IMG/VR virus record: IMGVR_UViG_3300037189_003789
Location: 1-39,860 of that record
Direction: 5' to 3' (one strand)
DNA: 39,860 nt
Source of the DNA: a virus
The notes below the pieces were generated by a model. That model saw only the letters and a list, made by a program, of their open reading frames with translations. It made no database searches and was not told the origin of the DNA. A program made the translations under genes and the position numbers. Below, one piece after another: positions 3,194 through 37,389 of this stretch; position 1 is the stretch's first letter; each line of letters starts with the position of its first letter.

Positions 3194-3199
3194 CGTGCG

Positions 3200-8045: not shown

Positions 8046-8048
8046 CAA

Positions 8049-17370: not shown

Positions 17371-17816
17371 TGTCCAACAGCCTACATACTAAAACAGTAA
17401 TAACAGCAAAAGCCACAGTTAATTCAGCATCTAGTCCAAGAAAGTATAGAGGGTTCAGCACAGTCAGTACTAATACACAAAATTTTGCATTGTATGATTT
17501 TGAATTAATTAAACAGGATTTATTAAACAGTTTTCATGTGCGCCAAGGGGAAAGATTGATGAATCCTACGTATGGTTGTGTTATATGGGATCTATTATTT
17601 GAACCTCTTACTGACGACATTAAAGAGCTAGTATTGCAGAATGTTAATCAGATACTTAATTCTGATCCACGTGTACAAGCTAATAATGTTATCGTAACTA
17701 CCTACGATACTGGAATACAAATAGAAGCTGTGCTAACGTATGTGCAATATAATCTTCAAGAACAATTACAAATACAGTTCGATCAAACCAACGGTTTAAC
17801 AGCGCAGACCGTATAA
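17370..17816 (+). CDS. 25: Baseplate wedge protein gp25
   Basis: 148 residues (T4 gp25 is 132). A short variable N-terminus is followed by the gp25/GPW fold: YDFELIKQDLLNSFHVRQGE (about 48-67), RLMNPTYGCVIWDLLFEPL (about 68-86), DDIKELVLQNVNQILNSDPR (about 88-107) and the strand pair NVIVTTYDTGIQIEAVLTYV. The family belongs to the minimal sheath-initiating baseplate core shared by contractile tails and type VI secretion (TssE). The start codon overlaps the upstream spike stop (TAATG) and has an excellent AGGAGG site. It is the last gene of this sub-operon before a new late promoter. Confidence 0.95.
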   Translation: MSNSLHTKTVITAKATVNSASSPRKYRGFSTVSTNTQNFALYDFELIKQDLLNSFHVRQGERLMNPTYGCVIWDLLFEPLTDDIKELVLQNVNQILNSDPRVQANNVIVTTYDTGIQIEAVLTYVQYNLQEQLQIQFDQTNGLTAQTV

Positions 17817-17863: not shown

Positions 17864-20800
17864 ATGAGTTCAACAACAAGACAAAATAATCTGCTACTAG
17901 CAGAAGATTGGCAAAAGATATATCAAAGTTTTAGGAACGCAGACTTCCAAAGCTATGATTTTGACAATCTACGTCGTACGATGATTGACTATATCCGTAC
18001 AAATTTCCCAGAAGATTTTAACGATTATATTGAGTCAAGCGAGTACTTGGCCCTTATCGATCTTATTGCTTTTATAGGTCAAAGTGTTGCTTTCCGTGCT
18101 GATCTAAATGCACGTGAAAACTTTTTAGAGCTTGCAGAACGTCGTGATAGCATCTTACGATTAGCTCGACTAGTCAGTTACAATGCTAGAAGAACTGTGG
18201 CGGCACAGGGACTATTAAAATTTACCACCGTACAAACAACAGAAAATGTGCTTGACAGCAACGGCCGTGATCTTGCTGGACAATATGTGTCTTGGAACGA
18301 TAGTAGCAATCCTAACTGGTATGATCAATTTATTAAAATTCTAGATGCGGCATTCCCACAGCAACAACAGTTTGGAAATCCTGCAGATAGCGCAACAATT
18401 TACGGAGTGCCCACAGCCCAGTACAGGTTTAATGCTAACAACAAAGATGTGCCGGTTTATTCATTCTCTAAAACTATTGCAGGCCGTGGAATGGATTTTG
18501 AAATAACCAGTACAACATTTACCGGACAAACATTTATATACGAAGAAGCTCCGAAGATTGCTAATCAAATATCTTGCATCTACAAAGATGACGGCTATGG
18601 TGCCGGTAGTCCGGGAACAGGATTTTTCTTTAACTTTGTTCAAGGTACATTAAACACTGGAACATTTACAGTTTCAAATCCTAGCACTAATCAATCTATA
18701 GATATTAATACACAAAATATCAACGATTCAGATGTTTGGTTATATGATGTAAATCAAAGTACCGGTCTAGAACATACCTTATGGTTAAAAGTTCCTGCAC
18801 TAACCGGTAATAATGTTATCTACAATTCATTAAATCAAACAACTAGTACAATCTATGCTGTGGCTACTAAAGTTGGTGATGCGGTTAGCTTGAATTTTGC
18901 AGATGGTACGTTTGGCAAATTACCCAACGGTGATTTTAGAGTTTACTACAGAGTTAGTAACGGCTTAACTTATACTATCAACCCATCGGATATTGTTAAT
19001 GTGTCTATTGCAATTCCCTACATATCTGCTCTAGGAACAAGTGAAACATTAACGATAGGATTGAGCCTAGCCAGTTCAGTTATTAATGCAACTGCTTCAG
19101 AGACAAACGCTAGTATAAAACAAAATGCTCCACAGACTTACTATACACAAAATCGTATGATTACTGGAGAGGACTATAATATTAGTCCCTTGTCAGCTAA
19201 CTTACAGGTAGCAAAAGTAAAAGCTATTAATAGAACATCGAGTGGTATTAGTAGATATTTTGATCTAACAGATCCTACCGGAAAATATTCAAGTACAAAT
19301 CTTTTTGCCGACGACGGAGTTTTATATCAGCAGTTTTACACTACGGGTACAACATTCTCTGCCTCCGGAACTCAAATAACTGGTGCGTATGTACAAGGTG
19401 TTATTGACAATACTGTGTTGCTTATCCTTGAAGATCCTAATCTTAGAAATTTCTTTTATTCAACATTTGTTACCTATACTGCGGCCAGTCTTAATGTGTC
19501 TTGGTATGCAGTGACCAGTGACAGCAACAGTACTAGCGGATATATTGGAGGCGCAACTACTAAGATACCGTTTGCTGTTGGAACATATACTCTAACAGAT
19601 TTAAGTTATGTAACTGCAGGTGCTATGATTAAATTTACAGCACCGGCTGGTAAGTATTTTAATACCAAGCAGGCTAATGCTATTACAACAATACCAACAA
19701 TTGGTGGGCAACCTTTAGTGCCAGCTAATGGCGCAAGCTACTTGTGGGCTAGAGTAGTTTCAGTAAAAGGAGATGGTACAGCTTCTGGTACAGGTACATT
19801 ATCAACAGGATTTGGTCCGATAATCCTAAGTAAGGAGATTCCAACAGGCGCTGTAGTTTCGGCTGTTATGCCGCATTTTTCAACATCGTTAACTACTAGT
19901 GTTCAGACATCAATGGTTGATCTAATACTAAGTAACTCAACATTTGGATTACGTTATGATGCAAGTTCTGCTAGTTGGCAAATTATCTTTGAACAAAATT
20001 TAAACACTACTTCTCCGTTCAGCTTGCAATATCAAGGCAATAATACTAACACTCAGTTAGATGCTAGCTGGCTACTATTATTTACAACTGACACACTAAC
20101 ATACACGATCACCGAACGTGCAGTGAGATATGTTTTTGAAAGTGATGCAGAGGTGACATTTTATTTTGATGATACTGTTAAAATTTATGATGTAGTGCAA
20201 TCGAATACAGTTACGGATACTATTAAGATATTAAACATTAATACTCAACCAGATAGCGCATTTCCATTCACTACTGATTACCACTGGCAGGTAGTATCTG
20301 AATCTATCGGACAAGACGGCTATATCGATCCTAAAAAAGTTATAATAACTTTCGCAGACCCAAGTAACAGCGGTGTTGTTGACAATCCACAGCAGTTTTT
20401 AGATATTGTAGCACCGTCAACTAATACATTAACCAAGTATATTGTTGAGAAAAAATATGAAATATCTCTAGGACAAGAAGATTACAAATATGTAACTAAT
20501 AATCCGTTAACAGGCCCTGTAATTATACTTCCTACTCAAAGTGCCGCATATCCAGTGAGCCAATGGACAACTGGACAGTATTTTTATTTTGTTGATTCAC
20601 AAGTAGTTGTACAATATGTTCCTACTAGTACTACTCAACAACTTCAACCTACATTAGATTATAAAGTTTATGCAGGTAGAGATAATCTGCGATTTCAATA
20701 CACTCACAGTGCTAGCTATGATTCAAGGATCGATCCCGGGTCTAGTAATATTATTGACATCTATGTATTGACACATAGTTATGATATGGCATTTAGACAA

Positions 20801-21376
20801 TGGGTCGCTAAAGGTGCTCCTCAGGACGGATCAGAGCCGCTACCGCCAAGTCAGAGTGAATTAAATACACTACTAGCACCTAATTTAAATCTAATTAAAT
20901 CAATATCAGATGAGATAATTTATCATCCGGTAAATTATACACTATTATTCGGAACAGCAGCCGACGCTAATTTACAAGCGACATTTGAAGTTATGATCAA
21001 TCCATCATCGGCAATAAGTTCAGCTAATGTTATTGCAAGGATATTAACAGCAATTAATCAATTCTTTGCACTTGAAAACTGGTCGTTCGGTGACACCTTC
21101 TACTTTACAGAGTTATCAACTTATGTAATGAATCAGTTAGCACCTGATATTACTGCATTTGTGATAGTTCCAGTGCAAACAGGTCAATATTTTGGTAGTC
21201 TATTTGAAATAACTTGTCCTAGCAACAGCATATTTTTAAGCTGTGCTACGGCAGCAAATATACAAGTAGTGTCGGGATTAACCAGCACTAATCTTAAAAC
21301 TGTAACAGGTACAGCACTAGCTGAAACAGTGTCTAGTCAACAAATCACTAGCGCAAATTATGGGGCAAATAGTTAA
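17864..21376 (+). CDS. 6: Baseplate wedge protein gp6
   Basis: 1170 residues, nearly twice T4 gp6 (660). The N-terminal block is the gp6/J-like signature: LLAEDWQKIYQSFRNADFQS (about 10-29), then a LRRTMIDYIRTNFPEDFNDY helix, SEYLALIDLIAFIGQS and AFRADLNARENFLELAERRD, and LRLARLVSYNARR. The middle region contains long beta-rich inserted segments (about 450-700, rich in Thr/Ser), which explains the extra length. The C-terminal part (YNISPLSANLQVAKVKAINR region and the final ANVIARILTAINQFFALENW helix) matches the wedge dimer core. gp6 forms the inner ring that holds the wedges and triggers sheath contraction. Confidence 0.92.
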   Translation: MSSTTRQNNLLLAEDWQKIYQSFRNADFQSYDFDNLRRTMIDYIRTNFPEDFNDYIESSEYLALIDLIAFIGQSVAFRADLNARENFLELAERRDSILRLARLVSYNARRTVAAQGLLKFTTVQTTENVLDSNGRDLAGQYVSWNDSSNPNWYDQFIKILDAAFPQQQQFGNPADSATIYGVPTAQYRFNANNKDVPVYSFSKTIAGRGMDFEITSTTFTGQTFIYEEAPKIANQISCIYKDDGYGAGSPGTGFFFNFVQGTLNTGTFTVSNPSTNQSIDINTQNINDSDVWLYDVNQSTGLEHTLWLKVPALTGNNVIYNSLNQTTSTIYAVATKVGDAVSLNFADGTFGKLPNGDFRVYYRVSNGLTYTINPSDIVNVSIAIPYISALGTSETLTIGLSLASSVINATASETNASIKQNAPQTYYTQNRMITGEDYNISPLSANLQVAKVKAINRTSSGISRYFDLTDPTGKYSSTNLFADDGVLYQQFYTTGTTFSASGTQITGAYVQGVIDNTVLLILEDPNLRNFFYSTFVTYTAASLNVSWYAVTSDSNSTSGYIGGATTKIPFAVGTYTLTDLSYVTAGAMIKFTAPAGKYFNTKQANAITTIPTIGGQPLVPANGASYLWARVVSVKGDGTASGTGTLSTGFGPIILSKEIPTGAVVSAVMPHFSTSLTTSVQTSMVDLILSNSTFGLRYDASSASWQIIFEQNLNTTSPFSLQYQGNNTNTQLDASWLLLFTTDTLTYTITERAVRYVFESDAEVTFYFDDTVKIYDVVQSNTVTDTIKILNINTQPDSAFPFTTDYHWQVVSESIGQDGYIDPKKVIITFADPSNSGVVDNPQQFLDIVAPSTNTLTKYIVEKKYEISLGQEDYKYVTNNPLTGPVIILPTQSAAYPVSQWTTGQYFYFVDSQVVVQYVPTSTTQQLQPTLDYKVYAGRDNLRFQYTHSASYDSRIDPGSSNIIDIYVLTHSYDMAFRQWVAKGAPQDGSEPLPPSQSELNTLLAPNLNLIKSISDEIIYHPVNYTLLFGTAADANLQATFEVMINPSSAISSANVIARILTAINQFFALENWSFGDTFYFTELSTYVMNQLAPDITAFVIVPVQTGQYFGSLFEITCPSNSIFLSCATAANIQVVSGLTSTNLKTVTGTALAETVSSQQITSANYGANS

Positions 21377-24300
21377 TGGCTAACAGTATTCTTCCACCCG
21401 GCGGACTTGGTGTAAACTTTCTTCCTGATTTTTATCAGACTCCGGCTAACAAAAAATTCCTGCAAGCTACAGTTGATCAATTATTTCAACCGGGTACAAT
21501 TACTAAGACCAGTGGATTTATCGGTCGTGAAAATGCTAAAGCCGCTACCGGCACTGATGTTTATGTAAAATCAGCTACTACTCCTAGACAAAACTATCAG
21601 CTAGAACCAGGCATAGTAATTAAGGATGAGTTAGATAACGTAAAGTTTTTTAAAGACTATCAGGACTATATTAATCAATTAGGAGTATTTGGAGCGAATA
21701 CTAGCAATCATGCTCGTTTAAATAAACAAGAATTTTACAGCTGGGATCCGCATATTGATTGGGATAAGTTTGTTAACTTTCAAAACTATTACTGGTTACC
21801 ATATGGACCTGACGCTATACGAATTTATGGTCAGCAAGCAACTGGCGTTAGTACATATACTGTAGAAATACAATCCGAAGGTGATGTTAACGAATATCTA
21901 TTCACACCTAACGGTCTAACATTAAATCCTACGATTAAATTATATCGAGGTCAGACCTATAATTTTAGTGTTACTAGTGACGCAAATCCATTTAGCATTA
22001 TGCTTTCTAGATCAACCGGTACTGGTTCGAGATACCATAGCGGTGTTGTTAATAATGGAGTAACTAACGGAATACTAACATTTACAGTTCCTATAGATGC
22101 TCCTAATCTACTATATTATCAAAGTGAATCTGATATAGCACTAGGCGGTGCAATAGAAATTTATGATTTCTTGGATAATTCATACATTGATGTAGTTAAC
22201 GAAGTATTAGGTAAAAAGAATTACAAATTAAGTAACGGGACTCAATTAAGTAACGGCATGAAAGTGGAGTTTGGTGGTAATGTAACCCCGGCTAGTTATG
22301 CTTCAGGCAAATACTATGTAGAAGGTGTAGGTACTGCAATTAAACTAGTGCCCGAGGCAATATTAGAAATAGTAACACCTTACACAAAAAACGAATCTAT
22401 AGAATTTGATGCAACACCGTTTGATGTTAGCCCGTTTGATGACGCCACCGGATTTGCCACTTTACAAGATTATGTAGTAATTAATCGTGCTAGTAAAGAC
22501 CATAACCCGTGGACAAGATATAATCGTTGGTTTCATAAAGATGTAATTATAACATCAGCAACTTATAACAACGATACTCCATCGTTAGATCAAACAGCTA
22601 GAGCAGTTAGACCAATTATAGAGTTTGAAGCAGATCTTAAATTGTTTAACATGGGTACTACTGCTACAACAGATATCGACTTAGTTGATGATTTTACTAC
22701 AGATGTATTTTCAGCAATTGAGGGCACGACTGGATATAATATAGATGGTGTACAACTAGTACAAGGACAGAAAATATTATTTTTAGCTGACACAGACCCT
22801 CTTGTACAAAACAACATATACGAAGTTGGGTTTGTTAATATCCAAGGAACTATCAGAATAACATTAACACAGATAGCAACACCGACTTTAAATCAATCGA
22901 CATTAGTATTACAAGGATTAGCAAATCAAAGTTTGATGTATTGGTTTAACGGGTCGACATGGATTAAAGGGCAACAAAAAACAAATACTAATCAAGCGCC
23001 ATTGTTTGATATAGTTGACGACAATGGTATAAGTTACAGTGACGAAATGACCTACACCGGTACTACATTTACCGGAACAAAATTATTTTCTTATGAACTA
23101 GGTACAGGGATTGCTGATAAAATTCTAGGATTCCCATTAACCTATCTAAATGTTGCGAATATTGGTGATATTGTTTTTAGTTTTAATTTAGCTACAGATA
23201 CTTGGAAATGGAAACAAAATGGTAGTACTGTTACAAAACAGATTAGTGCAGGATACTTATCAAGTTTAGATTATGCAGGTAACAAGATTTATATCAATGG
23301 TTGGCAAATTTGCAATACTACTACAACACAAGCGTCGGTAAGGATTTATAAAAATTCAGGATTAACAAATAAATTTAATCTTGATGTATACGATGATATT
23401 AACAATCTAACTGATTTAGAAGTAAAATTATATGTCAACGGCGTCCGCTTAGAACCTACTAAATGGACATTGGTAAAAAGAACAGATTATTATCAAATAG
23501 TTTTAACCACTCCTATAGAGCTTACAGATGTATTAACTATTAGAAGTTTTTCAGCACAGCCTATAAACGAGAATGGTTATTATGAAATTCCACTGAACCT
23601 ACAGAATAATTCTTTAAACAGCGATATCAGTACATTCACGCTAGGCGAGGTAATGGATCATGTTAATAGCATTATAGATAATATACCGCAGACATACGAT
23701 ACAACTCATAATAGTATTAGAGATTTAGGAAACGTTACACAATATGGTACAAAATTTGTACAGCACAGCGGCCCTCTCAGCCTTGCAATATACCATGTTA
23801 CTTCGGAATCTAATAATATCATCAAAGCATTAGAAACTGCTAGGGATGATTATAATTCATTTAAAAGAAATTTTATAGCTCTTGCAGGATCGCTAGGCGT
23901 TGATGCAACTTCGACTCAGTTAGTTGAATTAATTTTACAAAAACTCAACGCAAATAAACCTAATACGTCACCTTATTATTTTAGTGACATGGTTCCGTAC
24001 GGAGCTGCCACTACTACTAATTTAACCGTAGTTGATTATAGAATAAAAACATATCCGCTAACTGCTGTATTTTCTCTAGATAAATTAAGCAATAAGGCTG
24101 TTGGTGTTTACCAGACTAGTGTACTAACTAAAGTTAAAACACAATTAGCTTATGGTCGAGACTATACATTCAGTGACCAAGGGTTTGTTGTAATTAGCGA
24201 TAGCTTGGTTCTTACTAATGGCGATACAATCACAACTATCGAATATGATTCAACTGACGGTTCTTATGTACCGGCAACACCTACTAAATTAGGCATGTGG

Positions 24301-27300
24301 CCTGCATATATTCCTAAAATTTATCTAGATACTACTCTAGTTAATCCACAGAATGTAATTCAAGGGCACGATGGTAGTATTATTTTAGCCTATGGCGATT
24401 ACAGAGATGATTTAATTTTAGAATTAGAACTGCGCATCTTTAATAATATCAAAGTCAAGTACGATTCAACAATTTTTGATATCGGCAATGTAATCCCAGG
24501 ATATAATAGAAAGACCGATTACTCCTTATTAGAGTTTAATCAAGTATTAGCACCTGCATTTTATCAATGGTCCGGACTAGTTGGTATTGACTTTACACTA
24601 CCGTTGAGTTACGATCGTAGTAATCCGTTCACATTTAATTACTCGCAGGACGCGGCACCGAACCAGACAGCAACTCCGGGTTATTGGAGAGGTATATATC
24701 GTTGGATGTTTGATACCGATCGTCCGCATCTATGCCCTTGGGAAATGTTAGGATTCAGTGAAGAACCTACTTGGTGGGCCAGTGTGTACGGTCCTGCACC
24801 ATATACTAGTGATAATCTAGTCCTATGGGATGATTTAGCTACAGGCGCAGTGCGCCAGCCTGGGAAACCCTTAAAGGTATTAAGTAAGTATGCCAGACCT
24901 GTTTTAACTGGTCATATACCAGTTGATGAAAGCGGAAATCTATTAAGCCCGGCAAGATGCGGCCTAGCAACCGGATTGATGATAGCGAGTACCGGAAATG
25001 ATTTTGTATTCGGCGACGTTAGCCCAATAGAAGCTACATGGCGACGCAGTAGCTATTATCCATTTAGCGTAATAGTAGCTTCGATGTTATTAACACCTGC
25101 AAATACGTTCGGCATATTATTAGATAGATCTAGAATTGTTCGCAATCTTGCTGGACAACTTGTTTACTCTGATACAAACTTACGTATACAACCTGCCGAT
25201 GTTCTAATTCCAAGTGTATATACTAGCACAACTAGAGTACAAACTGCAGGTATTGTTAATTATATTGTTGATCTTATTTTAAATATTATCTTTAGTAATA
25301 ATCAAGATGCTTACAGATCATATCAATCAGATCTAATGGCACTAACTCCTCAGCTGAGTTATCGAATCGGAGCATTTACAAATCAAGATCAATTTAATCT
25401 ACTGTTAGAAAGTAAAACGCCATCGGCGACCGGCAGCGTCTTTATTCCAAAAGAAAGCTATAAAATATTTTTAAATTCGTCTAGCCCTACACAGAAGATT
25501 ACTTATAGCGGAGTTATAATTACAAAACTATCGAGTGGTTTTGAAATTAAAGGTTATAGTAAAACCCAACCGTACTTTTTCTACTTAGATTATATTGAAT
25601 CTGGAGTCGGAATAAATGTTGGAGGAATATCTGAAAGTTTTGTTACATGGACTACGGGTCAGCAATACATAATAGGACAAATAGTTAAATTTAATAATGC
25701 GTACTATAGAACAACTACAACTAATACAGCATCAACTAAGTTTAATCCTTCACACTTTGATGCATTATCAAGTTTACCAATAGTCGGCGGAGTTACAGCT
25801 AAGTTTAGAGATTCTTGGAATCGCACTACGGTTAAAGTTGCACCTTACGGCACACAGTTTTCTAGTGTGCAAGAAGTTGTAGATTTCTTATTAGGATATG
25901 AACAATATCTAACTGATCAAGGATTTGTCTTTGACGAATTTAACGAAAAATTAGAAGCAGTTGCAAACTGGTCCACTAGTGCTAAAGAGTTCATGTTCTG
26001 GACTACACAGAATTGGTCAACGGGTAGTACAGTGTGGGCAGATTGGATGCCGAACCAACCTTATAATTATAGTAGCATTGTACGATTCAACGGTAGTTAT
26101 TATAGTGCTCAATATAATATTCTTGCACAGGGAGATTTTGAAAGTACTCAATGGACATTGTTACCCGGTCTAAGCAATGTAGGTAGTAGTGTAATTAGTC
26201 TAAGCCCAGCAGCCAAGAACATAACATTTAATACAACACTAGCGGTTGTCGACGATATTAAAAATCCTTTTAATAGATATGAAATTTTTAAAGTAGACAG
26301 CACACCTATTCATCCCAATGAGCTAGACAGCTACAGAATTGGCAATACTGTTTCCTATAGCCCTCGTACTACAGACGGCATTTATTGCGCTAGTTTCTAT
26401 CTAATACAAAACGAACATGTGGCAATTATTAATAACGTAGATATATTCAACGATGTTATATATAATCCACCAAGCGGATATCGTAGAGAGCGTATTAAAT
26501 TATCTGGATATGTAACCGAAGGATGGTATGGCGGTTTAGATATTCCAGGATTTATATTCGATGGTGCTAAAGTACAAGGCTGGCAACCGTGGCAAGATTA
26601 TAACATGGCAGATGTTATAGCTTATCAAGGATACTATTATAGTGCTAACTCGTTCATTGCAGGATCTTCTACATTTACATCATCTCAATGGAATAGATTA
26701 TCAAAACAGCCATCTGCACAGCTAACTCCTAACTGGACTAACTCAGCTACTCAGTTTACAGATTTCTACGGACTAGAGATTGACAATTTTAATACACAGC
26801 AACAGGTATTTGCTCAACATCTAATCGGATATCAGAAGCGTCAATATCTTAATAATATAATACAAGATCCCGTAAGCGAATTTAAATTCTATCAAGGCAT
26901 GATACGTGATAAAGGTACACAGAACGTACTTAATCATTTGTTCGGAGTACTTAATGCAGATAAAGTTGAGAGTCTAACATTCTATGAAGAGTGGGCAATT
27001 CGTGTTGGACAATACGGCGCTTCTAACGCATTTGAAGATTTTGAAGTTATTATCGATCAAAACAAATATAAAAATAATCCCCAAGGCTATTACCTATCAA
27101 GTTCTTCAAACAATAATATCAGTTATACTATAAACCAACTAGTGCCAAATGACATCTATATTAAACCGTTAGGTTATAATAGTAAGCCATTTCCAATATT
27201 AACAACTGCTAAACAGTTCCTACGTAGTGCAGGTTATGTAAACCCTATTGATATTACCTATAATATAGGTTCTTTTGATCATATCTACGATACTGATTCT

Positions 27301-30300
27301 AACGGAAATCTAAAATATCCTGTATCCGGAATCGGTAACGGACAGTATATATGGACATCATTTAACGTTAATAGTTGGAACGTTTATAGATTTACAGATT
27401 TACAAATTCGTGTTACTAATGTAGTCTACACTTCAGATACAAAAACATTAACTATCACTACACAAAATTTAATTCCGATTAGTGTGGGAATGTATGTTGG
27501 TCTAGTGCAAGTTAATAGTATAGCAGGATTTTATAAGGTTACTAGTGTAAGTTTAAATTCCTTTACAGTAGTCAGCCCGTCTACTCTAGTAGTACCGTCA
27601 CCGTTTACACAAACTAGTCAGCTAGTAGTCTATGCATTAACTCCCCAGAGAGCAATATCTATAGACACAATTGATACTGTGTCGTTATCACATTTAGATC
27701 CTGGAACTCTTATCCGGACTGACGATTCTGGTAATGGCACTTGGGCAGTTTGGCAATATAACAGCGTGTATACTACACAAGATATACCTGATGTATCTCC
27801 GTCAACTAATTTTAACTTTGGTTCTAGTCTATCAGTTAATAGACAATCATCAATACTAGCAGTCGGCGATAGTCAAGGCTCGGTTTTAATGTATGATAAA
27901 GCTGGAACATCAGTTAAGTGGATAAGACGAGGATCAATCACTTCACCATTTATATCAAATAATGGCCCGATTACATCAAAACAAATTGCATCACTTTCAG
28001 CAATAAGTGATGACGGCACATGGTTGGTTACCGGAAGTCCATTTGCTGGTTATGCCGCCACTGCATATAAAGGAACCTATAATAGCAGTTTAACTTATCC
28101 TATTGATAGTATAGTTTCTGTTCAGAACTCTACAAACAACTATTCATATTACCAAGCTCTGAGAGCAGTACCAATAAACACAGTACCGACTAATGCAACC
28201 TATTGGTTCAAAGCACCGTACATCCCTGTAAGTAAATTATCGGGAACAGATTCGACATTAGCAGGACAAGGTGTTATTAGTATATACTTAAAAGATCTAG
28301 ACAATAATTATAATCTAATAGACACTATCGTTAGTCCTTTACCTGCCGCCAATGAACACTTTGGATCTAGTTTTGCATTTGGTAACAACAGCTTGTATGT
28401 AGGCGCTACTGGATACAACAATGGTGCTGGCCGAGTTTATAAATTATCATACACTACAACTGTACAGGTAACTACGCAATACAATCCAGTTGGTAGCCTA
28501 AATAGTATACTAGCAGTTAGTTCAACTAGCGGCATACGTGCCGGAATGATAGTACAGGGTAAAGGATTTACCAAGGGTCAAATTGTAGAAGCTGTGTTAA
28601 GCCCGACTACATTAAGTTTAAGCGGAACTCCGGATACAGGTGTTGTTCCGACCGGCATACTTAAATTTGTAACTAATAGTTGGACATACGATTGGAATGA
28701 AAATTATGTAGGCACAGCCTCTAGTGCATTAGGTACTAGCATTTCGACTAGTACAAATGCATCAACTCTTGCAATCACGTCAACCGGAACTGTACATATC
28801 TATAAAAACACCGGAAGTAGCATGATAGCATTGCCTTCGATAACAGGCAGTGATTCCTACTTTGGTCAAGGAGTAGCTGTATCACCCGACGGCAACTATA
28901 TTGCAATTTCTAATGATACCGAAGGAGTAGTAAGTCAAGCTGGCGGAGTAACGATATACTCATATACTAATGGTAGTTATACATCATATCAGACACTAGT
29001 AAATCATCGACCAGAGACTAACGGGTTGTTCGGCAATAAACTAGCATTTATGTCCGACAATACTATTGCGGTCTATAATAAAAACGGCGATAGTAAAATA
29101 ACTACAGGGTTTGATAATAACACTACAACCTTTGATAAAAAATCTACTAATTTTGTAACATTAGAAGTAAACAGCGGCCGAGTTGATGTTTATGATAGAT
29201 ATAATACCAAGTGGGTCTTCAGTGAAAGCCTTAAATCAACTAATCTTCCTAGTGACGGATATGGCACTGGATTCGCTGTAGGCTCTAATCAAATAATAGT
29301 AAGTGCACCAAATGCTACTGATCAAAGCCTAGCATCTGGTCTAGTGTACAGTTACGGAAAATCTGACGGCGCTTACTCTTGGTCTCAATATGAAAAACAA
29401 GACCTAGTTGCCGATGTTAGTAAAATTAAAAAGGCATTCTTATATAATAGAAAACTAGGAGAACTAGTAACTTATCTTGATATAGTTGACCCATTACAAG
29501 GTAAGATTCCTGGACCGGCACAAGAAGAATTAACCTATCAGACATTTTACGATCCTGCCAACTATTCATACAGCGACGAAACTATAGAGAGCGCAGTAGT
29601 TGATACTAATGCATTCTGGGCAGATCAGGAAGTTGGTCAACTTTGGTGGGATTTAAGAACTAGTAAATTCTTAGAAAATAACTTTGGAGATCCAGCATAT
29701 AGAAATAGTGCATGGAATACACTTGCACAAGGTGCTAGTATTGATATCTACGAATGGGTTTCTACAAACTTGTTACCAGCTAATTGGGATATTCAAGCAG
29801 ACACTCCAGAAGGCATAGCTATGGGTATTAGCGGTAAGAGTTTATACGGTAATTCTGCCTATAGTGTAACACAAGTGTATGACAACATCAGTAAGTCATT
29901 TAGAAATACCTATTATTTCTGGGTTAAAAATAAACGACTAGTGCCGCCAAATGTTAGCGGACGACACATGGCCGCCACTGGTATAGCATCGTTAATTGCT
30001 AATCCAAGAAGTCAAGGGTATACATGTTTAGCTATTACAGGGGTAGATTCGTTTAGTCTAATAAATGCCGCACAATATCTAAAAGGTACTGATGTAGTAC
30101 TAGCTGTAGAATATTGGACGATTGACAAAGTTGATCAAAATGTTCACAGTCAATGGAAGTTAATTAGCAATGACACATTAGTAAACTTGCCGAAGGATAT
30201 TGAACAAAAATGGTTTGATAGTTTATGTGGCTCCGACAGTGCCGGTCGTTCAGTACCCGATCCTGCGTTACCAGTTAAATTGCGTTACGGTATTGAAAAC

Positions 30301-33300
30301 CGTCCACGTCAAAGCATGTTTGTTAATCGTATCGAGGCTCTAAAAGAATTTATTGAGAGTGTTAATTTAATTCTAAGTACATATCAAACAACAGAACTAA
30401 GAGATATTAGTCCGTTAGAAAGATATGAACCAATTCCTAATGTAATCTACGGCCTGTATGATGCCGCCGTTGACACCTACGCAGAGCTTGTATATGCTAG
30501 TATTGGATCATTCTCATCTGCTACAGTAACACCGGTGATAGTTAATGGAAGTATAACAGGTATTAATATTATTAATTCCGGTAAAGGTTATGTAAATGCA
30601 CCGTATATTATGATCTCAGGATCAGGCACAGGCGCAAATGTACGTGCAATAATTAACACTCTAGGAGAAATTACCGGAGCGAAGATTATCAACGGAGGCA
30701 ACGGGTATAACATTAATACTCAGTGTTCAATACGTAGTTACTCAGTACTTGTTAATAGTGATGAGACTGCAGGTAATAGTTGGAGTATCTATTCATATGA
30801 TACTATGACAAACTTGTATTCTAAAGTGTTAACACAATCATACGACGTTCGAAATTATTGGACTTACAGAGATTGGTATTCTACAGGTTATAATCAATTT
30901 AGTGCACCTGATCTAACAGTTGATAATTTTGTAGATTTAAACACAGCACAAGATTTGTTCTTCCGACTAGCACGTGACGGTACCGAACAACCGGGCCAGC
31001 TAATCAAAGTTTTAAACGGCAATTCAGGAAAATGGGTGTTGTTATATAGATACTCAACTGTAATTTCAGTAGACTGGACTCAAAGTTATCAAGTAGTTGG
31101 TATACAGGATGGTACTATACAATTTAACAGTGATTTATATAAATTTGCCGGCACAGTTATTGGCTATGATTCTAATATTTTTGACAATGCAGACTTTGAC
31201 GTTCAGGCGAATGCAGAATTACGAATTATATTAAACACTATTAAGAATAACATATTAATTGAAGATCTTAAAAAGAATTATTTAGATTTATTTTTAAGCA
31301 GTCTCCACTATGCACATAGCGAACAGCCATTTATTGATTGGGCCTTTAAGACTAGTTTTGTACGAGCAACACATACTGTTGGAACTCTCAACCAACCAGT
31401 TAATTATCCAGTCGATAACTTAAGAAATTTCCAAGATTATGTTTCGGAAGTTAAACCTTATAGAACTAAGGTTAGAGAATATATCAGTCAATACACCGGT
31501 GTTGACACAGACCATAGTGCAGTTACAGACTTCGACCTACAACCCAACTATACAAATAATAGGATTAGACCAGTTGAAGCAACTTATTCAAATAATAGTA
31601 TAAGTGTAGTAGATCCGGCGATTCGAACATATCCTTGGAAGTTTTGGAATGATAATGTTGGATTTAGTATAACTGAAATTAAAATTGTTGACGGCGGCTC
31701 TGGCTATGCAAACATACCAGAAGTAATTATTAGTATGCCAACTGGTCCTAATTCGGTACCTGCTACCGCGGTTGCCTACATTACTAACGGCAAGGTCAAT
31801 AGGATCGTACTAACTAACATCGATCAATATGGTAGTGCAGGAAAAGGTTACTTATCTGCTCCTACAATAACAATTAATGGCGGATTAAACATAGATGGAG
31901 TTGCCGCTAAAGCTGTAGCAATTATTGGTAATAGTGTAGTACGATCAAATCTTACAGGATTACGTTTTGACCGTGTTAATCAAACTTATTACTTGGCAAA
32001 TTTACAGCAAGTAGATAGATTTAAAGGTACCGGTTCTCGACTACAATTTAGTTTGTCATGGGCACCAGATATACGTGCCGGCCAATCTAGTGTAACAGTT
32101 AATAGTATTCCTGTGCTTAGGGAATTATATACCTTAGCAACAGTTACATCTACATCTGCAGGATATACACAATATACAGGAAAGATTACATTTGTTACAG
32201 CACCTGCCGCGGGATCTTCTGTAGTAGTAACTTATAATAAATCACAAGATGTATTAACAGCTTCGGATCGTATACAATATTATTATAATCCAACAACCGG
32301 ACAACTAGGAAAAGACCTTACCCAACTAATGACTGGTGTCGATTACGGTGGAGTTATAGTCAGTGGGTTAGGATTTAATATTGCAGGCGGCTGGGGAGCT
32401 AGTCCGTATCTTACAGACTCTTGGGACAGCAGACCTGCGACCTTTAATGATTATGCAGTCCAAGTAGGAGCAAATACGCACGATTTTATTTTACCGTTTA
32501 CACCTCCTGTTGGAACAGCAATTAACATCTATTTTTCAAGACTAGTAACACAATCGTACACGTCGGATGGTGTTAGTACACAGTATGCATACGATTCTAC
32601 TTTACAAAATGTATCAGCAACTGTTGTATCGACTACTACTACAACAACAGTTACTACAACTTATATTACATCGGAAGTTATTAACGGAACAACTATTAAG
32701 AGTGGCGGGTATACACTACTAGTCGCTAGTACCGTAGGAATTGTGCCCGGCATGATTGTTAAAGGTACTGGTTTTTCAAAGAATCAAAAGGTAGTCAATG
32801 TAATTAATTCAACAACGCTGACTATAGATAATGTAGCTGATGGGTTCCCGTCAACTGACGAAGTTCTAACTTTTTCTAATATAGCTGGTAGTTTTATCTT
32901 AACAGTTGCTAGTACTTCAGGGCTAGTAGTAGGGGATATAGTAACCGCTACTGGTACAAGTAGTACAGCCTTTGCATACGGAACAGCGATTACAGCAATT
33001 AATTCTTCTAATTCTGTTACACTTAATCAGATTTTATATTCAACTATTGCATCCGGAACAACGATAACATTTACACAAAATCTAGTTGAGCCGACTACAG
33101 TGGTTATTAATGCGTCAGGAACAATCCAATTACTCCAAGCATACCCGGCAGGAAGCACAATTAATATTATCGGACAACGTCTTCCTGTGAGATTAGACGA
33201 TCCTCACTATGGACTAGTAGCTACTAGTACTTGGGCACCTGGTACTAACTATGCAATCAACAGTCTAGTACTAGTTGATAGTATTTCTTATATTTGTAAA

Positions 33301-36300
33301 AGAACTAACATTGCCGGGACTACGTTTGCCTTAGATTTCTCATTAGGATATTGGGCATTAATAAATTCAAACGCTATAATCCCAACTCCGGTGATTGGTG
33401 TAAGTGTAATCACTGACGTTGTAGATGGCGGTGCAGGAGGCGCAAGCCTGTCTATATCATTTAGTAGTGTAGTTGATTCTGGTACAGCATCTACTATCGA
33501 AGATACAATACTCGACGGTGGAATTATAAATGATTCACCGACAAATGTTATTGAAATTCCTGCAACATTTACAGTATTAGAGGGTGACGAATTTATCCTA
33601 AGAGAATCAACTAGCGATGGATCAGTACCAACTCCGGACGAGATCTACGACAGTAAGATAGATGGCGGAAATTTAATTTATTCAACAGCTACCGGCATCG
33701 CCGCAGACGACATTGTACTCGACGGCGACGGATTTGTCACACCGACATCGAGCCCAGCGACCGAAGAAGTAGTTCCTGGACAAGTTGTAGACACGTTAGC
33801 AATTAAAGTTTACGATAAATCTCCAAACGGTGCCGCAAATATTAAAGTGAATTCGTATCTAACAGACGGAGTAACTAAATCATTTGCCATCGGTCAAACT
33901 CCTAATAGTCCTAGAGCTGTAATAGTTAAACTAGGGACTAGTATAAAAACATACGGCACAGATTATACAGTTGATTATTCAAATAAATTAATCAACTTTA
34001 AAACTATTCCTAGCTTAGGACAATTAGTTACAGTATTCAGTATAGGGTTTAACGGAAATAATATTTTAGATCTAGACTACTTTATCGGTGACGGCGTTAC
34101 AACTGAATTTATAACTCGAGCTCCTTGGGTAACTTTAGTCACACCGTTAGTATATGTAAACGGAGTCTCAGCTACGGTTGAGTTATTTGAAACTGATACT
34201 ACGTATTCTTTCTCTCATGCTGTGGGACTTAGATTTTTAACGCCTCCTGCAATCGGTGCACTAATTAACTACATAATTGTCAGTGGAAGCCAACAAACTT
34301 TTGCTATTACCAAGACTGAAACAGTTATAACTACCGGAGCAAGTACATATACACTACAATATCCGATAGGCAAAACTCTACCAAACGAAAGTAATATGAT
34401 TGTTAGAGTTGACCAGTCAATATTACAAGCACCAATTAATAGTTACTATACAATTTCTAATAATAAACTTACCTACGTCGTTAACCCTTCTAAGTCATTG
34501 CCATATTCTACTGCTGTTACTGACATCTATGCCTATGCCGACGGAAATCGATTAACATTAGGTCGTGACTACACCGTTGACCCAGCTGGTATCTCGGTTA
34601 TTATTAATAATAATGTATACTCAACTTATGAAGGTAAACAATTAATTATAAGTATAATTTCAAATGACGGTTATAGTTATAACCCTAACACCAGTCAAAT
34701 TACATTTGCGCCAGGTGTTATCGTTGGAAACACACAAACTGTAGAAGTAGTTAGTAGTTATCTGCATGATACTTTAGATATCCAAAGAACTGCGGTTGAG
34801 TATTCTGCTTCTTATAGATTAACACCGGGCAGTATTGCTTTTTATCAATACAATGCAATCGGCGGCGGATTAATACAGCTTGATAGACCAGTTATCGATG
34901 CTAGCTATGTTTGGGTAACTAAAAATTCAGCGTTACTATCACCGGGTGTTGACTACAAACTAAATGATGACTTCCAAAGTTTACGTCTCACGCAACCAAT
35001 AACTACTGCAGATAGTTTAGAAATAATTACTTTTAGTAGCAATATACTACCTTCAAGCGGCATATCTTATATGCAGTTTAAAGATATGCTTAATCGAGTG
35101 ACTTATAGACGCTTGAATGCTAATAAGAGAACAGTATTAGCTGAAGATCTACGCTGGAATAGTACTCAAATAACAGTAGCCGATGCATCAGGGCTAGATC
35201 AACCAAACACTGCAAACAATAATCCTGGAGTGATTGAAATTCGCGGTGAACGAATAGAATACTTCCAAATAGATTATTCAACAAACATTCTAAGTCAGTT
35301 ACGTCGAGGCACACTAGGAACCGGAGTTTATAATATAAACAGAGCAGGATCGTTTGTACAGAACATCGGATCTAGCGAAACAATCCCATATGCTGATACA
35401 ACAATAACTGACACGGTAGCATCCTCAGGTCTTGGTACCCCTAGGGTATCAGGATCTATCATATCTACTACTTCCGAAGTAGTAGAACCGATTCCAAATT
35501 TTGCCATTATGACAACAGCTGGACAGCTATCAGTAACACCCGGTACCTACTATGTTGGTCAAGTAGTAGCTATGAGTGGTTATCCAATCCACGCTACTCT
35601 CACAGGAGTTACATCACTAGGAACCGCAGGTCAGTTCAGTTGTACAGCAAGTCCAAAAACACTAGTAGTAGGTCAGACTATAGTTGCTACAGGAATTACT
35701 ATAGCCGCAACACTTTCAAACATTGCTATTACTTCTACCAACGGACAATTCAGTTGCTCGTCGAGCCCAACGCCATTAGTCGTTGGACAACAGGTAACTA
35801 TGACCGGATTAGTAGTTGTAACACAGTCTATTACAGGTGTAGTAATCACAGGACCGGGAGGACAGTTTAGTTGTACGTCTTCACAAATACCTCTGGCAAT
35901 AGGCCAAACTATTACAATTTCTGGAAATTTTGGAGTAGGATCTAGTCAAGGAAGTATTACAGGATATACTAGTCCGTCTACCTATACTATTGTTTCTACT
36001 AATGGTAGAACATCATTTATTTTAGCTGTCATCGGAGGCGGTGCACTAACAACATCAATAGGAATTCCAACCGGATTGACCTATACACTAACAGCAGGAT
36101 CAGGTAGCATACAAAATTATCTTGCACCTGCAACTTATGTTATCAGCGAAACAAATGGTTCAACAACATTTACATTAAAAACTCTAGGTGGACAGCCTCT
36201 TGTAACCACAACAGGTATTCCGGCAGCGGCACCGACGATCGCTACAGGGTTAGGAATAAGTTTAACTGCTGGTACTATTACAGGATATTCTGGAACACAG

Positions 36301-37389
36301 GCTAGATATTTTATCTCAGCTACAAACGGATCAACGACATTTACACTGTCATCAACTTATCCTACAGTGACTCCTGTTGTTACTACGTTAGGAGCTATGT
36401 ATGGACAGCAATATAGTTTGAGCGCGGCCAGCATTAATAATTATACTAATCCAACGAACTACTATATCGTTGATACTAATGGTACGGATCAAATTACACT
36501 ATCGTCAACACAAGGCGGAACTCCAGTTACGTCATCAGTTGGTACTCCTTCGGGACTCGTAGCTAACGTAGTTATTAGTCTAGTAACTTTAGACAGTAAC
36601 AGTGGACTAGCCGCCTTACAAAAATTAGTTGTTATAGGGGACGGCGGCGGTGGCCTAACTCCGGGACCATATTATATTGTCGATCCTAATGCTGGAAAAA
36701 ATCAAGTTACTATAGCTACAAGTCTTGCACTAGCTAAGGCAGGTAAACCAGTTAATACCTTAACCACTACGGTATTGTCAAATACCACATTTAGTGCAGG
36801 TGGACAGGATATTAGTATCGGATTTACTCCTTCAAATGCTGATCAAATAGATGTATTTGTTGGAGGATATAATACTGTATCTTGGGCAGCCGATACTTCT
36901 TATACTGCGGGACAAATAGTATCAACCGGTGCATACACTTATCGATGTGTCGTAGCACATACTAGTTCAACATCGTTTGGAAACGACCTTACTAACTGGC
37001 ATTTCTTTGTAGAAAATGTACGCTTGAAGAAAAATGCATATAGTGTGTTTAACATTAACCAAGCACCTTACAGCCCAGCAGGAGATGTAGCTTTCCCAGC
37101 AGATTTTATTGTTGATGGCACTACTGCAACAGTAACTTTAACAAATCCGTTGACTCTAGGAACGCAAGTTACTGTGGTTAAAAAGACAGGTATCGCTTGG
37201 GATGGCGATAAGAATACCCCAGTGAACATACTAAATGATAATTCTGCTATTGCTAACTTTATCAAGGCAGCTCCTGGAATTTGGTACACTGAATACAATC
37301 AAATAAGTAATAGTACGATCAAAGGAAATTTTGACAATACTACTGTGTTATTTGACAATAATAATACAATAACATTCGATCAAGGATAA
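21376..37389 (+). CDS. Giant multidomain baseplate/tail protein (5337 aa), at the T4 gene 7 position
   Basis: A single uninterrupted 16-kb frame, overlapping the gp6 stop as TAATG. N-terminal 1-150 (GGLGVNFLPDFYQTPANKKF; FYSWDPHIDWDKFVNFQNYY) is a conserved attachment region found in large proteins after gp6 in aquatic T4-like phages. Next are long beta-rich virion domains. Carbohydrate-binding-like modules of the CBM5/12 pattern (W-x-x-x-x-x-Y-x-x-x-x-x-V...Y-Y...W) lie near 1425, 1557, 1736, 2232, 3953 and 5170. Residues about 2136-2675 form a probable seven-bladed FG-GAP propeller. Gly-Tyr repeats (SGKGYVNAPYIMISGSG) lie near 3052-3113 and 3432-3502. Three 'GMIVKGTGF'-type modules lie near 2360 and 3775-3900. 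Fibre-like domains fill 4130-4600. A C-terminal array runs from 4714 to 5139. Probably it replaces gp7/gp8/gp10 and carries receptor-binding functions; exact homology is unknown. Confidence 0.75.
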   Translation: MANSILPPGGLGVNFLPDFYQTPANKKFLQATVDQLFQPGTITKTSGFIGRENAKAATGTDVYVKSATTPRQNYQLEPGIVIKDELDNVKFFKDYQDYINQLGVFGANTSNHARLNKQEFYSWDPHIDWDKFVNFQNYYWLPYGPDAIRIYGQQATGVSTYTVEIQSEGDVNEYLFTPNGLTLNPTIKLYRGQTYNFSVTSDANPFSIMLSRSTGTGSRYHSGVVNNGVTNGILTFTVPIDAPNLLYYQSESDIALGGAIEIYDFLDNSYIDVVNEVLGKKNYKLSNGTQLSNGMKVEFGGNVTPASYASGKYYVEGVGTAIKLVPEAILEIVTPYTKNESIEFDATPFDVSPFDDATGFATLQDYVVINRASKDHNPWTRYNRWFHKDVIITSATYNNDTPSLDQTARAVRPIIEFEADLKLFNMGTTATTDIDLVDDFTTDVFSAIEGTTGYNIDGVQLVQGQKILFLADTDPLVQNNIYEVGFVNIQGTIRITLTQIATPTLNQSTLVLQGLANQSLMYWFNGSTWIKGQQKTNTNQAPLFDIVDDNGISYSDEMTYTGTTFTGTKLFSYELGTGIADKILGFPLTYLNVANIGDIVFSFNLATDTWKWKQNGSTVTKQISAGYLSSLDYAGNKIYINGWQICNTTTTQASVRIYKNSGLTNKFNLDVYDDINNLTDLEVKLYVNGVRLEPTKWTLVKRTDYYQIVLTTPIELTDVLTIRSFSAQPINENGYYEIPLNLQNNSLNSDISTFTLGEVMDHVNSIIDNIPQTYDTTHNSIRDLGNVTQYGTKFVQHSGPLSLAIYHVTSESNNIIKALETARDDYNSFKRNFIALAGSLGVDATSTQLVELILQKLNANKPNTSPYYFSDMVPYGAATTTNLTVVDYRIKTYPLTAVFSLDKLSNKAVGVYQTSVLTKVKTQLAYGRDYTFSDQGFVVISDSLVLTNGDTITTIEYDSTDGSYVPATPTKLGMWPAYIPKIYLDTTLVNPQNVIQGHDGSIILAYGDYRDDLILELELRIFNNIKVKYDSTIFDIGNVIPGYNRKTDYSLLEFNQVLAPAFYQWSGLVGIDFTLPLSYDRSNPFTFNYSQDAAPNQTATPGYWRGIYRWMFDTDRPHLCPWEMLGFSEEPTWWASVYGPAPYTSDNLVLWDDLATGAVRQPGKPLKVLSKYARPVLTGHIPVDESGNLLSPARCGLATGLMIASTGNDFVFGDVSPIEATWRRSSYYPFSVIVASMLLTPANTFGILLDRSRIVRNLAGQLVYSDTNLRIQPADVLIPSVYTSTTRVQTAGIVNYIVDLILNIIFSNNQDAYRSYQSDLMALTPQLSYRIGAFTNQDQFNLLLESKTPSATGSVFIPKESYKIFLNSSSPTQKITYSGVIITKLSSGFEIKGYSKTQPYFFYLDYIESGVGINVGGISESFVTWTTGQQYIIGQIVKFNNAYYRTTTTNTASTKFNPSHFDALSSLPIVGGVTAKFRDSWNRTTVKVAPYGTQFSSVQEVVDFLLGYEQYLTDQGFVFDEFNEKLEAVANWSTSAKEFMFWTTQNWSTGSTVWADWMPNQPYNYSSIVRFNGSYYSAQYNILAQGDFESTQWTLLPGLSNVGSSVISLSPAAKNITFNTTLAVVDDIKNPFNRYEIFKVDSTPIHPNELDSYRIGNTVSYSPRTTDGIYCASFYLIQNEHVAIINNVDIFNDVIYNPPSGYRRERIKLSGYVTEGWYGGLDIPGFIFDGAKVQGWQPWQDYNMADVIAYQGYYYSANSFIAGSSTFTSSQWNRLSKQPSAQLTPNWTNSATQFTDFYGLEIDNFNTQQQVFAQHLIGYQKRQYLNNIIQDPVSEFKFYQGMIRDKGTQNVLNHLFGVLNADKVESLTFYEEWAIRVGQYGASNAFEDFEVIIDQNKYKNNPQGYYLSSSSNNNISYTINQLVPNDIYIKPLGYNSKPFPILTTAKQFLRSAGYVNPIDITYNIGSFDHIYDTDSNGNLKYPVSGIGNGQYIWTSFNVNSWNVYRFTDLQIRVTNVVYTSDTKTLTITTQNLIPISVGMYVGLVQVNSIAGFYKVTSVSLNSFTVVSPSTLVVPSPFTQTSQLVVYALTPQRAISIDTIDTVSLSHLDPGTLIRTDDSGNGTWAVWQYNSVYTTQDIPDVSPSTNFNFGSSLSVNRQSSILAVGDSQGSVLMYDKAGTSVKWIRRGSITSPFISNNGPITSKQIASLSAISDDGTWLVTGSPFAGYAATAYKGTYNSSLTYPIDSIVSVQNSTNNYSYYQALRAVPINTVPTNATYWFKAPYIPVSKLSGTDSTLAGQGVISIYLKDLDNNYNLIDTIVSPLPAANEHFGSSFAFGNNSLYVGATGYNNGAGRVYKLSYTTTVQVTTQYNPVGSLNSILAVSSTSGIRAGMIVQGKGFTKGQIVEAVLSPTTLSLSGTPDTGVVPTGILKFVTNSWTYDWNENYVGTASSALGTSISTSTNASTLAITSTGTVHIYKNTGSSMIALPSITGSDSYFGQGVAVSPDGNYIAISNDTEGVVSQAGGVTIYSYTNGSYTSYQTLVNHRPETNGLFGNKLAFMSDNTIAVYNKNGDSKITTGFDNNTTTFDKKSTNFVTLEVNSGRVDVYDRYNTKWVFSESLKSTNLPSDGYGTGFAVGSNQIIVSAPNATDQSLASGLVYSYGKSDGAYSWSQYEKQDLVADVSKIKKAFLYNRKLGELVTYLDIVDPLQGKIPGPAQEELTYQTFYDPANYSYSDETIESAVVDTNAFWADQEVGQLWWDLRTSKFLENNFGDPAYRNSAWNTLAQGASIDIYEWVSTNLLPANWDIQADTPEGIAMGISGKSLYGNSAYSVTQVYDNISKSFRNTYYFWVKNKRLVPPNVSGRHMAATGIASLIANPRSQGYTCLAITGVDSFSLINAAQYLKGTDVVLAVEYWTIDKVDQNVHSQWKLISNDTLVNLPKDIEQKWFDSLCGSDSAGRSVPDPALPVKLRYGIENRPRQSMFVNRIEALKEFIESVNLILSTYQTTELRDISPLERYEPIPNVIYGLYDAAVDTYAELVYASIGSFSSATVTPVIVNGSITGINIINSGKGYVNAPYIMISGSGTGANVRAIINTLGEITGAKIINGGNGYNINTQCSIRSYSVLVNSDETAGNSWSIYSYDTMTNLYSKVLTQSYDVRNYWTYRDWYSTGYNQFSAPDLTVDNFVDLNTAQDLFFRLARDGTEQPGQLIKVLNGNSGKWVLLYRYSTVISVDWTQSYQVVGIQDGTIQFNSDLYKFAGTVIGYDSNIFDNADFDVQANAELRIILNTIKNNILIEDLKKNYLDLFLSSLHYAHSEQPFIDWAFKTSFVRATHTVGTLNQPVNYPVDNLRNFQDYVSEVKPYRTKVREYISQYTGVDTDHSAVTDFDLQPNYTNNRIRPVEATYSNNSISVVDPAIRTYPWKFWNDNVGFSITEIKIVDGGSGYANIPEVIISMPTGPNSVPATAVAYITNGKVNRIVLTNIDQYGSAGKGYLSAPTITINGGLNIDGVAAKAVAIIGNSVVRSNLTGLRFDRVNQTYYLANLQQVDRFKGTGSRLQFSLSWAPDIRAGQSSVTVNSIPVLRELYTLATVTSTSAGYTQYTGKITFVTAPAAGSSVVVTYNKSQDVLTASDRIQYYYNPTTGQLGKDLTQLMTGVDYGGVIVSGLGFNIAGGWGASPYLTDSWDSRPATFNDYAVQVGANTHDFILPFTPPVGTAINIYFSRLVTQSYTSDGVSTQYAYDSTLQNVSATVVSTTTTTTVTTTYITSEVINGTTIKSGGYTLLVASTVGIVPGMIVKGTGFSKNQKVVNVINSTTLTIDNVADGFPSTDEVLTFSNIAGSFILTVASTSGLVVGDIVTATGTSSTAFAYGTAITAINSSNSVTLNQILYSTIASGTTITFTQNLVEPTTVVINASGTIQLLQAYPAGSTINIIGQRLPVRLDDPHYGLVATSTWAPGTNYAINSLVLVDSISYICKRTNIAGTTFALDFSLGYWALINSNAIIPTPVIGVSVITDVVDGGAGGASLSISFSSVVDSGTASTIEDTILDGGIINDSPTNVIEIPATFTVLEGDEFILRESTSDGSVPTPDEIYDSKIDGGNLIYSTATGIAADDIVLDGDGFVTPTSSPATEEVVPGQVVDTLAIKVYDKSPNGAANIKVNSYLTDGVTKSFAIGQTPNSPRAVIVKLGTSIKTYGTDYTVDYSNKLINFKTIPSLGQLVTVFSIGFNGNNILDLDYFIGDGVTTEFITRAPWVTLVTPLVYVNGVSATVELFETDTTYSFSHAVGLRFLTPPAIGALINYIIVSGSQQTFAITKTETVITTGASTYTLQYPIGKTLPNESNMIVRVDQSILQAPINSYYTISNNKLTYVVNPSKSLPYSTAVTDIYAYADGNRLTLGRDYTVDPAGISVIINNNVYSTYEGKQLIISIISNDGYSYNPNTSQITFAPGVIVGNTQTVEVVSSYLHDTLDIQRTAVEYSASYRLTPGSIAFYQYNAIGGGLIQLDRPVIDASYVWVTKNSALLSPGVDYKLNDDFQSLRLTQPITTADSLEIITFSSNILPSSGISYMQFKDMLNRVTYRRLNANKRTVLAEDLRWNSTQITVADASGLDQPNTANNNPGVIEIRGERIEYFQIDYSTNILSQLRRGTLGTGVYNINRAGSFVQNIGSSETIPYADTTITDTVASSGLGTPRVSGSIISTTSEVVEPIPNFAIMTTAGQLSVTPGTYYVGQVVAMSGYPIHATLTGVTSLGTAGQFSCTASPKTLVVGQTIVATGITIAATLSNIAITSTNGQFSCSSSPTPLVVGQQVTMTGLVVVTQSITGVVITGPGGQFSCTSSQIPLAIGQTITISGNFGVGSSQGSITGYTSPSTYTIVSTNGRTSFILAVIGGGALTTSIGIPTGLTYTLTAGSGSIQNYLAPATYVISETNGSTTFTLKTLGGQPLVTTTGIPAAAPTIATGLGISLTAGTITGYSGTQARYFISATNGSTTFTLSSTYPTVTPVVTTLGAMYGQQYSLSAASINNYTNPTNYYIVDTNGTDQITLSSTQGGTPVTSSVGTPSGLVANVVISLVTLDSNSGLAALQKLVVIGDGGGGLTPGPYYIVDPNAGKNQVTIATSLALAKAGKPVNTLTTTVLSNTTFSAGGQDISIGFTPSNADQIDVFVGGYNTVSWAADTSYTAGQIVSTGAYTYRCVVAHTSSTSFGNDLTNWHFFVENVRLKKNAYSVFNINQAPYSPAGDVAFPADFIVDGTTATVTLTNPLTLGTQVTVVKKTGIAWDGDKNTPVNILNDNSAIANFIKAAPGIWYTEYNQISNSTIKGNFDNTTVLFDNNNTITFDQG
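27781..29400 (+). other. Predicted seven-bladed FG-GAP-like propeller within the giant protein
   Basis: Residues about 2136-2675 contain seven blade-like repeats. Examples are NFGSSLSVNRQSSILAVGDS, SAISDDGTWLVTGSP, HFGSSFAFGNNSLYVGATGY, ALGTSISTSTNASTLAITS, YFGQGVAVSPDGNYIAIS, LFGNKLAFMSDNTIAVYNK and GYGTGFAVGSNQIIVSAP. Each has a (F/Y/L)G-x(3-4)-(V/F) turn followed by a strand of the type IAxG and a VxxYxx strand. A carbohydrate-binding-like module is inserted in blade 2 (about 2232-2281) and another module in the middle (about 2360-2439). Confidence 0.6.
35515..36790 (+). repeat. C-terminal repeat arrays in the giant protein
   Basis: Two diverged repeat families at the protein level. The first (residues about 4714-4857) has four units centred on GQFSC...PLVVGQxVxxTG. 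The second (about 4870-5139) has five units centred on Y(V/I)IxxTNGxTxFTL followed by G-x-P-x-x-T-x-x-G. At DNA level they are diverged, so they are old duplications. They look like beta-strand stalk modules ahead of the last carbohydrate-binding-like module. Confidence 0.6.

Follow-up and report, generated by a model that had tools for sequence, protein, structure and literature searches.

A 5337-residue protein encoded at the gp7 position of a T4-related virus is likely a gp7-type baseplate wedge protein

The virus fragment recorded as IMGVR_UViG_3300037189_003789 in IMG/VR was analysed over its full 39,860 bases, referred to here as the window. It carries a single reading frame of 16 kb directly behind the baseplate gene gp6, where phage T4 encodes gp7. 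The locus raises the questions of whether so long a frame is one genuine gene, whether its product stands in for gp7, gp8, gp9, gp10 and gp11 together, as the original prediction held, and which baseplate protein it represents. Coordinates are those of the window, and the giant frame, its features and the adjoining tail genes all lie on the plus strand.

The giant frame and its neighbours

The frame runs from 21376 to 37389, with an ATG start and its sole stop at its end, and encodes 5337 amino acids in as many codons. The preceding gp6 frame ends at 21376, so that the giant gene starts on the last base of gp6 and overlaps it by one base, which bears out the prediction of an unbroken frame coupled to gp6. 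Its 16014 bases make up 40.2% of the window, as had been estimated (about 40 percent), though relatives occur on contigs of up to 185 kb and the share is therefore a property of the fragment and not of the genome. G+C is even along the frame (0.33-0.41), without a step hinting at a join. The nearest relative (L086, 5324 codons) aligned in one piece to residues 1-5337 with 79% identity, and about 40 non-identical complete IMG/VR frames from other assemblies, each in one piece, had lengths of ∼3,900-5,460 codons. The retrieved loci contained 61 complete frames that matched, and an additional relative, cut by its contig end, had at least 5,672 codons. Scans of IMG/VR with two different query stretches located relatives in 211 and at least 576 places. 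The giant gene is real, large and conserved. Its size is ordinary both for its family and for cyanophage gp7.

Directly 5′ of the giant gene we identified gp5, the hub and tail lysozyme (15676-17370), gp25, a wedge protein (17370-17816, PF04965 over its cut-off), and the wedge protein gp6 (17864-21376; PHROG 10646, E 3e-291, and PHROG 219, the T4 gp6 family, E 6e-23). The following gene, cut by the window end (37393-39858), encodes a gp9/10-type fibre or connector (PF07880 over its cut-off; PHROG 677 and 958). The gene order is thus gp5-gp25-gp6-giant-gp9/10-type, and the giant adjoins gp6 where T4 has gp7, in agreement with the prediction. The gp6 of the window is enlarged too (1170 aa vs 660 in T4). 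Elsewhere in the window, a baseplate-hub-type gene (6123-6950, plus strand; PHROG 150) stands alone among minus-strand genes, and a frame at 7608-8048 matched PHROG 447, 'NAD synthetase' (5e-37), and, more weakly, homing-endonuclease families; the 'NAD synthetase' name may be a mislabel.

A widespread family and its conserved architecture

Three consecutive pieces of the giant matched PHROG 10938, a 'virion structural protein' family of 3,324 positions, with E values of 5e-168, 1.6e-91 and 2.2e-50, which assigns the protein to this family. TBLASTN analysis of isolated phages gave long collinear matches in PA5oct-type Pseudomonas phages, Agrobacterium phage Atu_ph07 and Sinorhizobium phage Phosso, with further collinear matches in Salicola phage SCTP-2, a Vibrio phage and RaK2-type enterobacterial jumbo phages. 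The homologues in isolate jumbo phages had 3,326-4,555 aa, and every one was encoded directly 3′ of a gp6-type gene. A UniProt protein from an uncultured phage showed 54% identity across the second conserved block of the giant, and a search of a bacterial genome collection with residues 681-1500 returned no relative. The giant is another member of a widespread giant tail-protein family, already catalogued and deposited, and not a new gp7-gp11 fusion. The record of the PA5oct homologue carries an 'ESI-MS/MS' note, denoting detection in the virion, and CBB_236 (3340 aa) was found in virions with 21 peptides and 7.72% coverage (PMC5259590); in these two relatives the protein is a virion component.

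Comparison with far relatives revealed conserved blocks at residues 1-140, ∼270-620, 680-1908, 2664-3000 and 3124-3450. The N-terminal segment (residues 1-140; 21376-21795) showed ∼31-38% identity to all far relatives, with 13 invariant positions. It is possibly a helical hairpin of the wedge core, judged by register only: its register is similar to that of cyanophage gp7 residues 13-49, where the match itself is at noise level. A module at residues 157-265 (21844-22170) is common with the C-terminal domain of cyanophage gp9/10-type connectors (PHROG 677, E 1.4e-16; hhalign 96%, E 3e-9). The main conserved block (residues 680-1908; 23413-27099) could be aligned in PA5oct, Atu_ph07, Phosso, SCTP-2, RaK2 and others. 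Within it lies a gp7-like core segment with an FYxG...KGT motif (residues 1786-1890; 26731-27045), which contains the best of 87 windows compared with the cyanophage gp7 core.

Further along, residues 2149-2662 (27820-29361) probably form an FG-GAP-type beta-propeller insertion with seven repeat-like units, of which five were recovered in a leave-one-out test (E 3e-4 to 0.13). This region gave weak Pfam matches to FG-GAP_2 and WD40, and is short or absent in RaK2-type relatives. The second conserved block (residues 2664-3450; 29365-31725), defined by alignment of far relatives, was modelled by AlphaFold2 with a mean pLDDT of 73. The model of residues 2640-3450 had no PDB match above noise, and in BFVD it matched solely models of its own family and one shared module. 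A glycine-rich module at residues 3047-3121 (30514-30738) also occurs in cyanophage gp7 (hhalign 98%), with a second copy at residues 3431-3517 (31666-31926; hhalign 91%), and residues 4581-4653 (35116-35334) are common with an insertion of the cyanophage gp7 core (hhalign 62%, E 7.5e-5). The variable region at residues 3701-4100 (32476-33675) showed ∼20-28% identity and 50-60% occupancy among 41 close relatives. The hypervariable degenerate repeats at residues 4701-5130 (35476-36765), which are diverged repeats at the DNA level, were present in just 3-13% of these relatives. Such poor conservation of residues 3701-4100, and especially of 4701-5130, suits an exposed outer part that may contact the host.

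Five CBM5/12-type modules were recognised by HMM (E 2e-8 to 7e-14; none in shuffled controls), and the 41 close relatives have 2-6 of them per protein (median 4). Modules 1 to 3 have the CBM5/12 (ChtBD3) fold by HMM and by predicted structure and lie in the conserved part (residues 1424-1461, 25645-25758, iterated HMM 7e-14; residues 1556-1593, 26041-26154; residues 1736-1772, 26581-26691). Modules 4 and 5, identified by HMM, lie in the variable part, the former near residue 3952 inside the variable region (33229-33354) and the latter at residues 5170-5208 (36883-36999). The predicted folds of modules 1 to 3 match chitin-binding domains as well as phage tail and baseplate modules (Milano, 8fqc; KP1 variant, 9f4a), with a VIA-align Z of 6.7 and 1.2 Å over 44 residues for module 1 against chitin-binding domains. 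Since modules 1 to 3 are conserved in relatives, near the core, they are more like structural spacers. As regards the many adsorption domains of the original prediction, several modules resemble carbohydrate-binding domains, and a role in adsorption would be a step beyond that resemblance.

Probable placement of the giant as a gp7-type wedge protein

The explanation that we favour, with a probability of roughly 0.68, is that the giant is a gp7-type baseplate wedge protein (BW3 of contractile tails) from a myophage that is related to T4 and probably of jumbo size. The gene lies directly after gp25 and gp6 and before a fibre/connector gene, like T4 gp7. In a sliding profile comparison with the cyanophage gp7 core, residues 1842-1877 of the giant came top of the 87 windows with a score of 28.8, vs 19.5 for the next independent region (E 6e-4, probability 28%), in an alignment that spans ∼35 residues and is linked to T4 only through the cyanophages. 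None of 294 decoys (reversed, column-shuffled or core-shuffled) scored 28.2 or more, the maximum being 22.7. Cyanophage gp7 in turn matched T4 gp7 around T4 residues 725-823 (hhalign 94%, E 1.4e-7). Few parts of the family are as well conserved as the core segment, which all relatives possess and in which G, YL, F, G and KG are invariant. We regard the core match as suggestive and the gp7 identity of the giant as likely.

Direct sequence homology to T4 gp7 was considered and set aside: comparisons of T4 gp7 with the giant by BLAST, HMM and hhalign gave nothing at the right place, and the T4 core profile missed the region. Reciprocal HMM searches of the core were not significant. Three queries against the sequences of solved structures (residues 1-1500, the core profile and a profile of the N-terminus) returned chance-level matches only, as did Pfam on the core. 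In an AlphaFold2 model of residues 961-1960 as a monomer, the core part had a pLDDT of 20-45, so that the lack of gp7 among structural matches is uninformative; such low confidence would be expected if folding of the segment depended on gp6, and we count it as no evidence.

Solved baseplate structures show gp7/BW3 linking two gp6-type chains through a helical bundle and serving as the attachment site for receptor-binding proteins (PMC10811340; gp7 orthologue, PMC10457771). By analogy, a short helical core of the giant (residues ∼1786-1890, perhaps with residues 1-140) would join two gp6 chains into the wedge bundle, while long insertions on both sides of this core would build the baseplate's outer shell and its arms and provide sites where the fibre proteins of the adjacent downstream genes could dock. 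The fast-changing C-terminal half would face outward, where any contact with the host might be made.

An unlikely alternative, and the one that survives best, is that the true gp7 was lost and that an unrelated giant scaffold fills its gene position, having taken over wedge assembly and fibre docking. It would account for the lack of a direct match to the T4 gp7 profile or to PHROG 964 in the giant or in the records of 18 relatives, although PHROG 964 gives an insensitive test, as it found even the annotated P-SSM2 gp7 only at E 8e-5. Most conserved blocks match their own family alone, and according to a published study cyano- and pelagimyophages lack T4 gp7 and use a substitute for it (PMC7029224). 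However, the core motif match withstands the decoy controls, the giant stands in the gene order where gp7 would, and there is a match between the cyanophage gp7 core and T4 gp7, contrary to the published absence. A second gp7 was sought in seven isolate genomes of giant-carrying relatives and none was found, which favours the gp7 reading.

Whether gp8-gp11 were fused into the giant, kept as separate genes or lost bears on a further, improbable alternative, in which the roles of T4 gp7, gp8, gp9 and gp11 are united in one chain, the periphery being built from gp7 insertions. Comparison of 20 segments of the giant by hhalign detected no similarity to gp8, gp10 or gp11 beyond small generic modules, namely the glycine module, common with cyanophage gp8, and the one module of cyanophage gp9/10-type connectors, which speaks for consolidation; with profiles made from one or two sequences, the test is limited for gp10 and gp11. 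A gp9/10-type protein is separate, since PF07880 (the T4 gp9/10 N-terminal domain) is found in the gene that follows the giant, as well as on 9 of the 11 long contigs of relatives. In seven isolate genomes of relatives (PA5oct, Atu_ph07, Phosso, SCTP-2, RaK2, SE_PL and a partial Vibrio genome) gp8 (PF09215) and gp11 (PF08677) were undetected, with T4 recovered as a positive control in both searches and P-SSM2 in that for gp8. This result could favour consolidation, but it fits loss or divergence and not fusion, and profile absence may itself reflect divergence; in these relatives gp8 and gp11 look lost or unrecognisable rather than fused. P-SSM2, moreover, has a giant gp7 plus a separate gp8. 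The observation that no separate gp7-gp11 genes are seen thus stands for gp8 and gp11, undetected in the isolates, and fails for the gp9/10-type gene downstream, and the proposal that the giant replaces all five proteins is not supported. In a narrower form, the outer baseplate for which T4 uses gp8, gp11 and a portion of gp9 would, in this group of large T4-related phages, consist of insertions in one gp7 chain; we consider this doubtful, but if true, one protein per wedge would reach all the way from the core at the sheath to the rim that faces the host.

Downstream of the giant in its closest relative are a gp9/10-type gene, a conserved protein of ∼200 aa and further fibre-type genes. The ∼200-aa protein (L188:3368-3973; in PA5oct, L002:27705-28310, where it was detected by MS) is also present in Atu_ph07, Phosso, SCTP-2 and the Vibrio phage, with 33-75% identity. 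None of the gp8-gp11 profiles matched this protein, and its candidacy as the missing gp8, gp9, gp10 or gp11 is unsupported.

Processing of the giant as a polyprotein, to give several tail proteins at maturation, appears very improbable. The protein is long and modular, and the reported virion peptides are not proven to come from a full-length chain, but no protease site or boundary was seen. The sole homologue with a split frame (L130) has two frames overlapping by ∼28 bases (L130:9440-9700); the second continues the protein and lacks a usable start where the break occurs, which suggests a local frameshift, whether from sequencing or real. We know of no processing of a gp7 of such kind. An assembly artefact joining two genes is ruled out for practical purposes by the ∼40 non-identical single frames in independent assemblies, the even G+C and the isolated phages with the same architecture.

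The baseplate of large T4-related phages is mostly annotated as just 'structural protein'. Placement of this family at gp7 would provide a testable identity for a gene that ranks among the longest in many freshwater and jumbo phages, and the map of conservation sets a core for structure solution apart from a variable half where host contact would be sought.

Comparison with known baseplates

The giant of PA5oct (YP_010678859, 3857 aa, PHROG 10938) is homologous over most of residues 14-3400, and its neighbourhood is alike, with SbcC, SbcD, a late sigma factor, gp5, gp25, gp6 and the giant, then fibre-type proteins. It differs in being ∼1,480 residues shorter, in having one CBM5/12-like module vs five, and in a shorter insertion at the propeller region. 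Atu_ph07 gp180 (4449 aa) and the Phosso protein (4555 aa), directly after a gp6-type gene, and SCTP-2 gp140 (3807 aa), RaK2 gp465 (3326 aa) and CBB_236, in the same place, have homologous conserved blocks. These five differ in their insert and C-terminal content, and their aligned parts have 23-29% identity to the giant.

T4 gp7 (1032 aa) occupies the same gene position after gp6; it is five times shorter than the giant and has no direct sequence match to it, and a likeness of their cores is suggested by way of cyanophage gp7. By profile comparison a gp7 core is detectable in cyanophages, contrary to the absence described for them (PMC7029224). In Pelagibacter phage HTVC008M, gp55 (L172:5436-8486), annotated as 'head closure Hc2', lies behind gp6 and can be aligned to the core of cyanophage gp7; it is probably gp7, which bears on the same absence claim for pelagimyophages.

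Cyanophage gp7, the 'baseplate wedge initiator', lies directly after gp25 and gp6 both in P-SSM2, which keeps a separate gp8 beside it, and in syn9 (gp101). A TBLASTN search with P-SSM2 gp7 residues 1-1500 gave matches in 472 phage records, and many of these bear the annotation 'baseplate wedge initiator'. The cyanophage core is near residues 190-315, whereas that of the giant is at ∼1790-1890, and most of their length is not alignable. Common to both are the glycine-rich module, a weak core motif, the gene position and giant size: P-SSM2 gp7 has 5195 aa and syn9 gp101 6076 aa, so that the size and position of the giant described here are not new.
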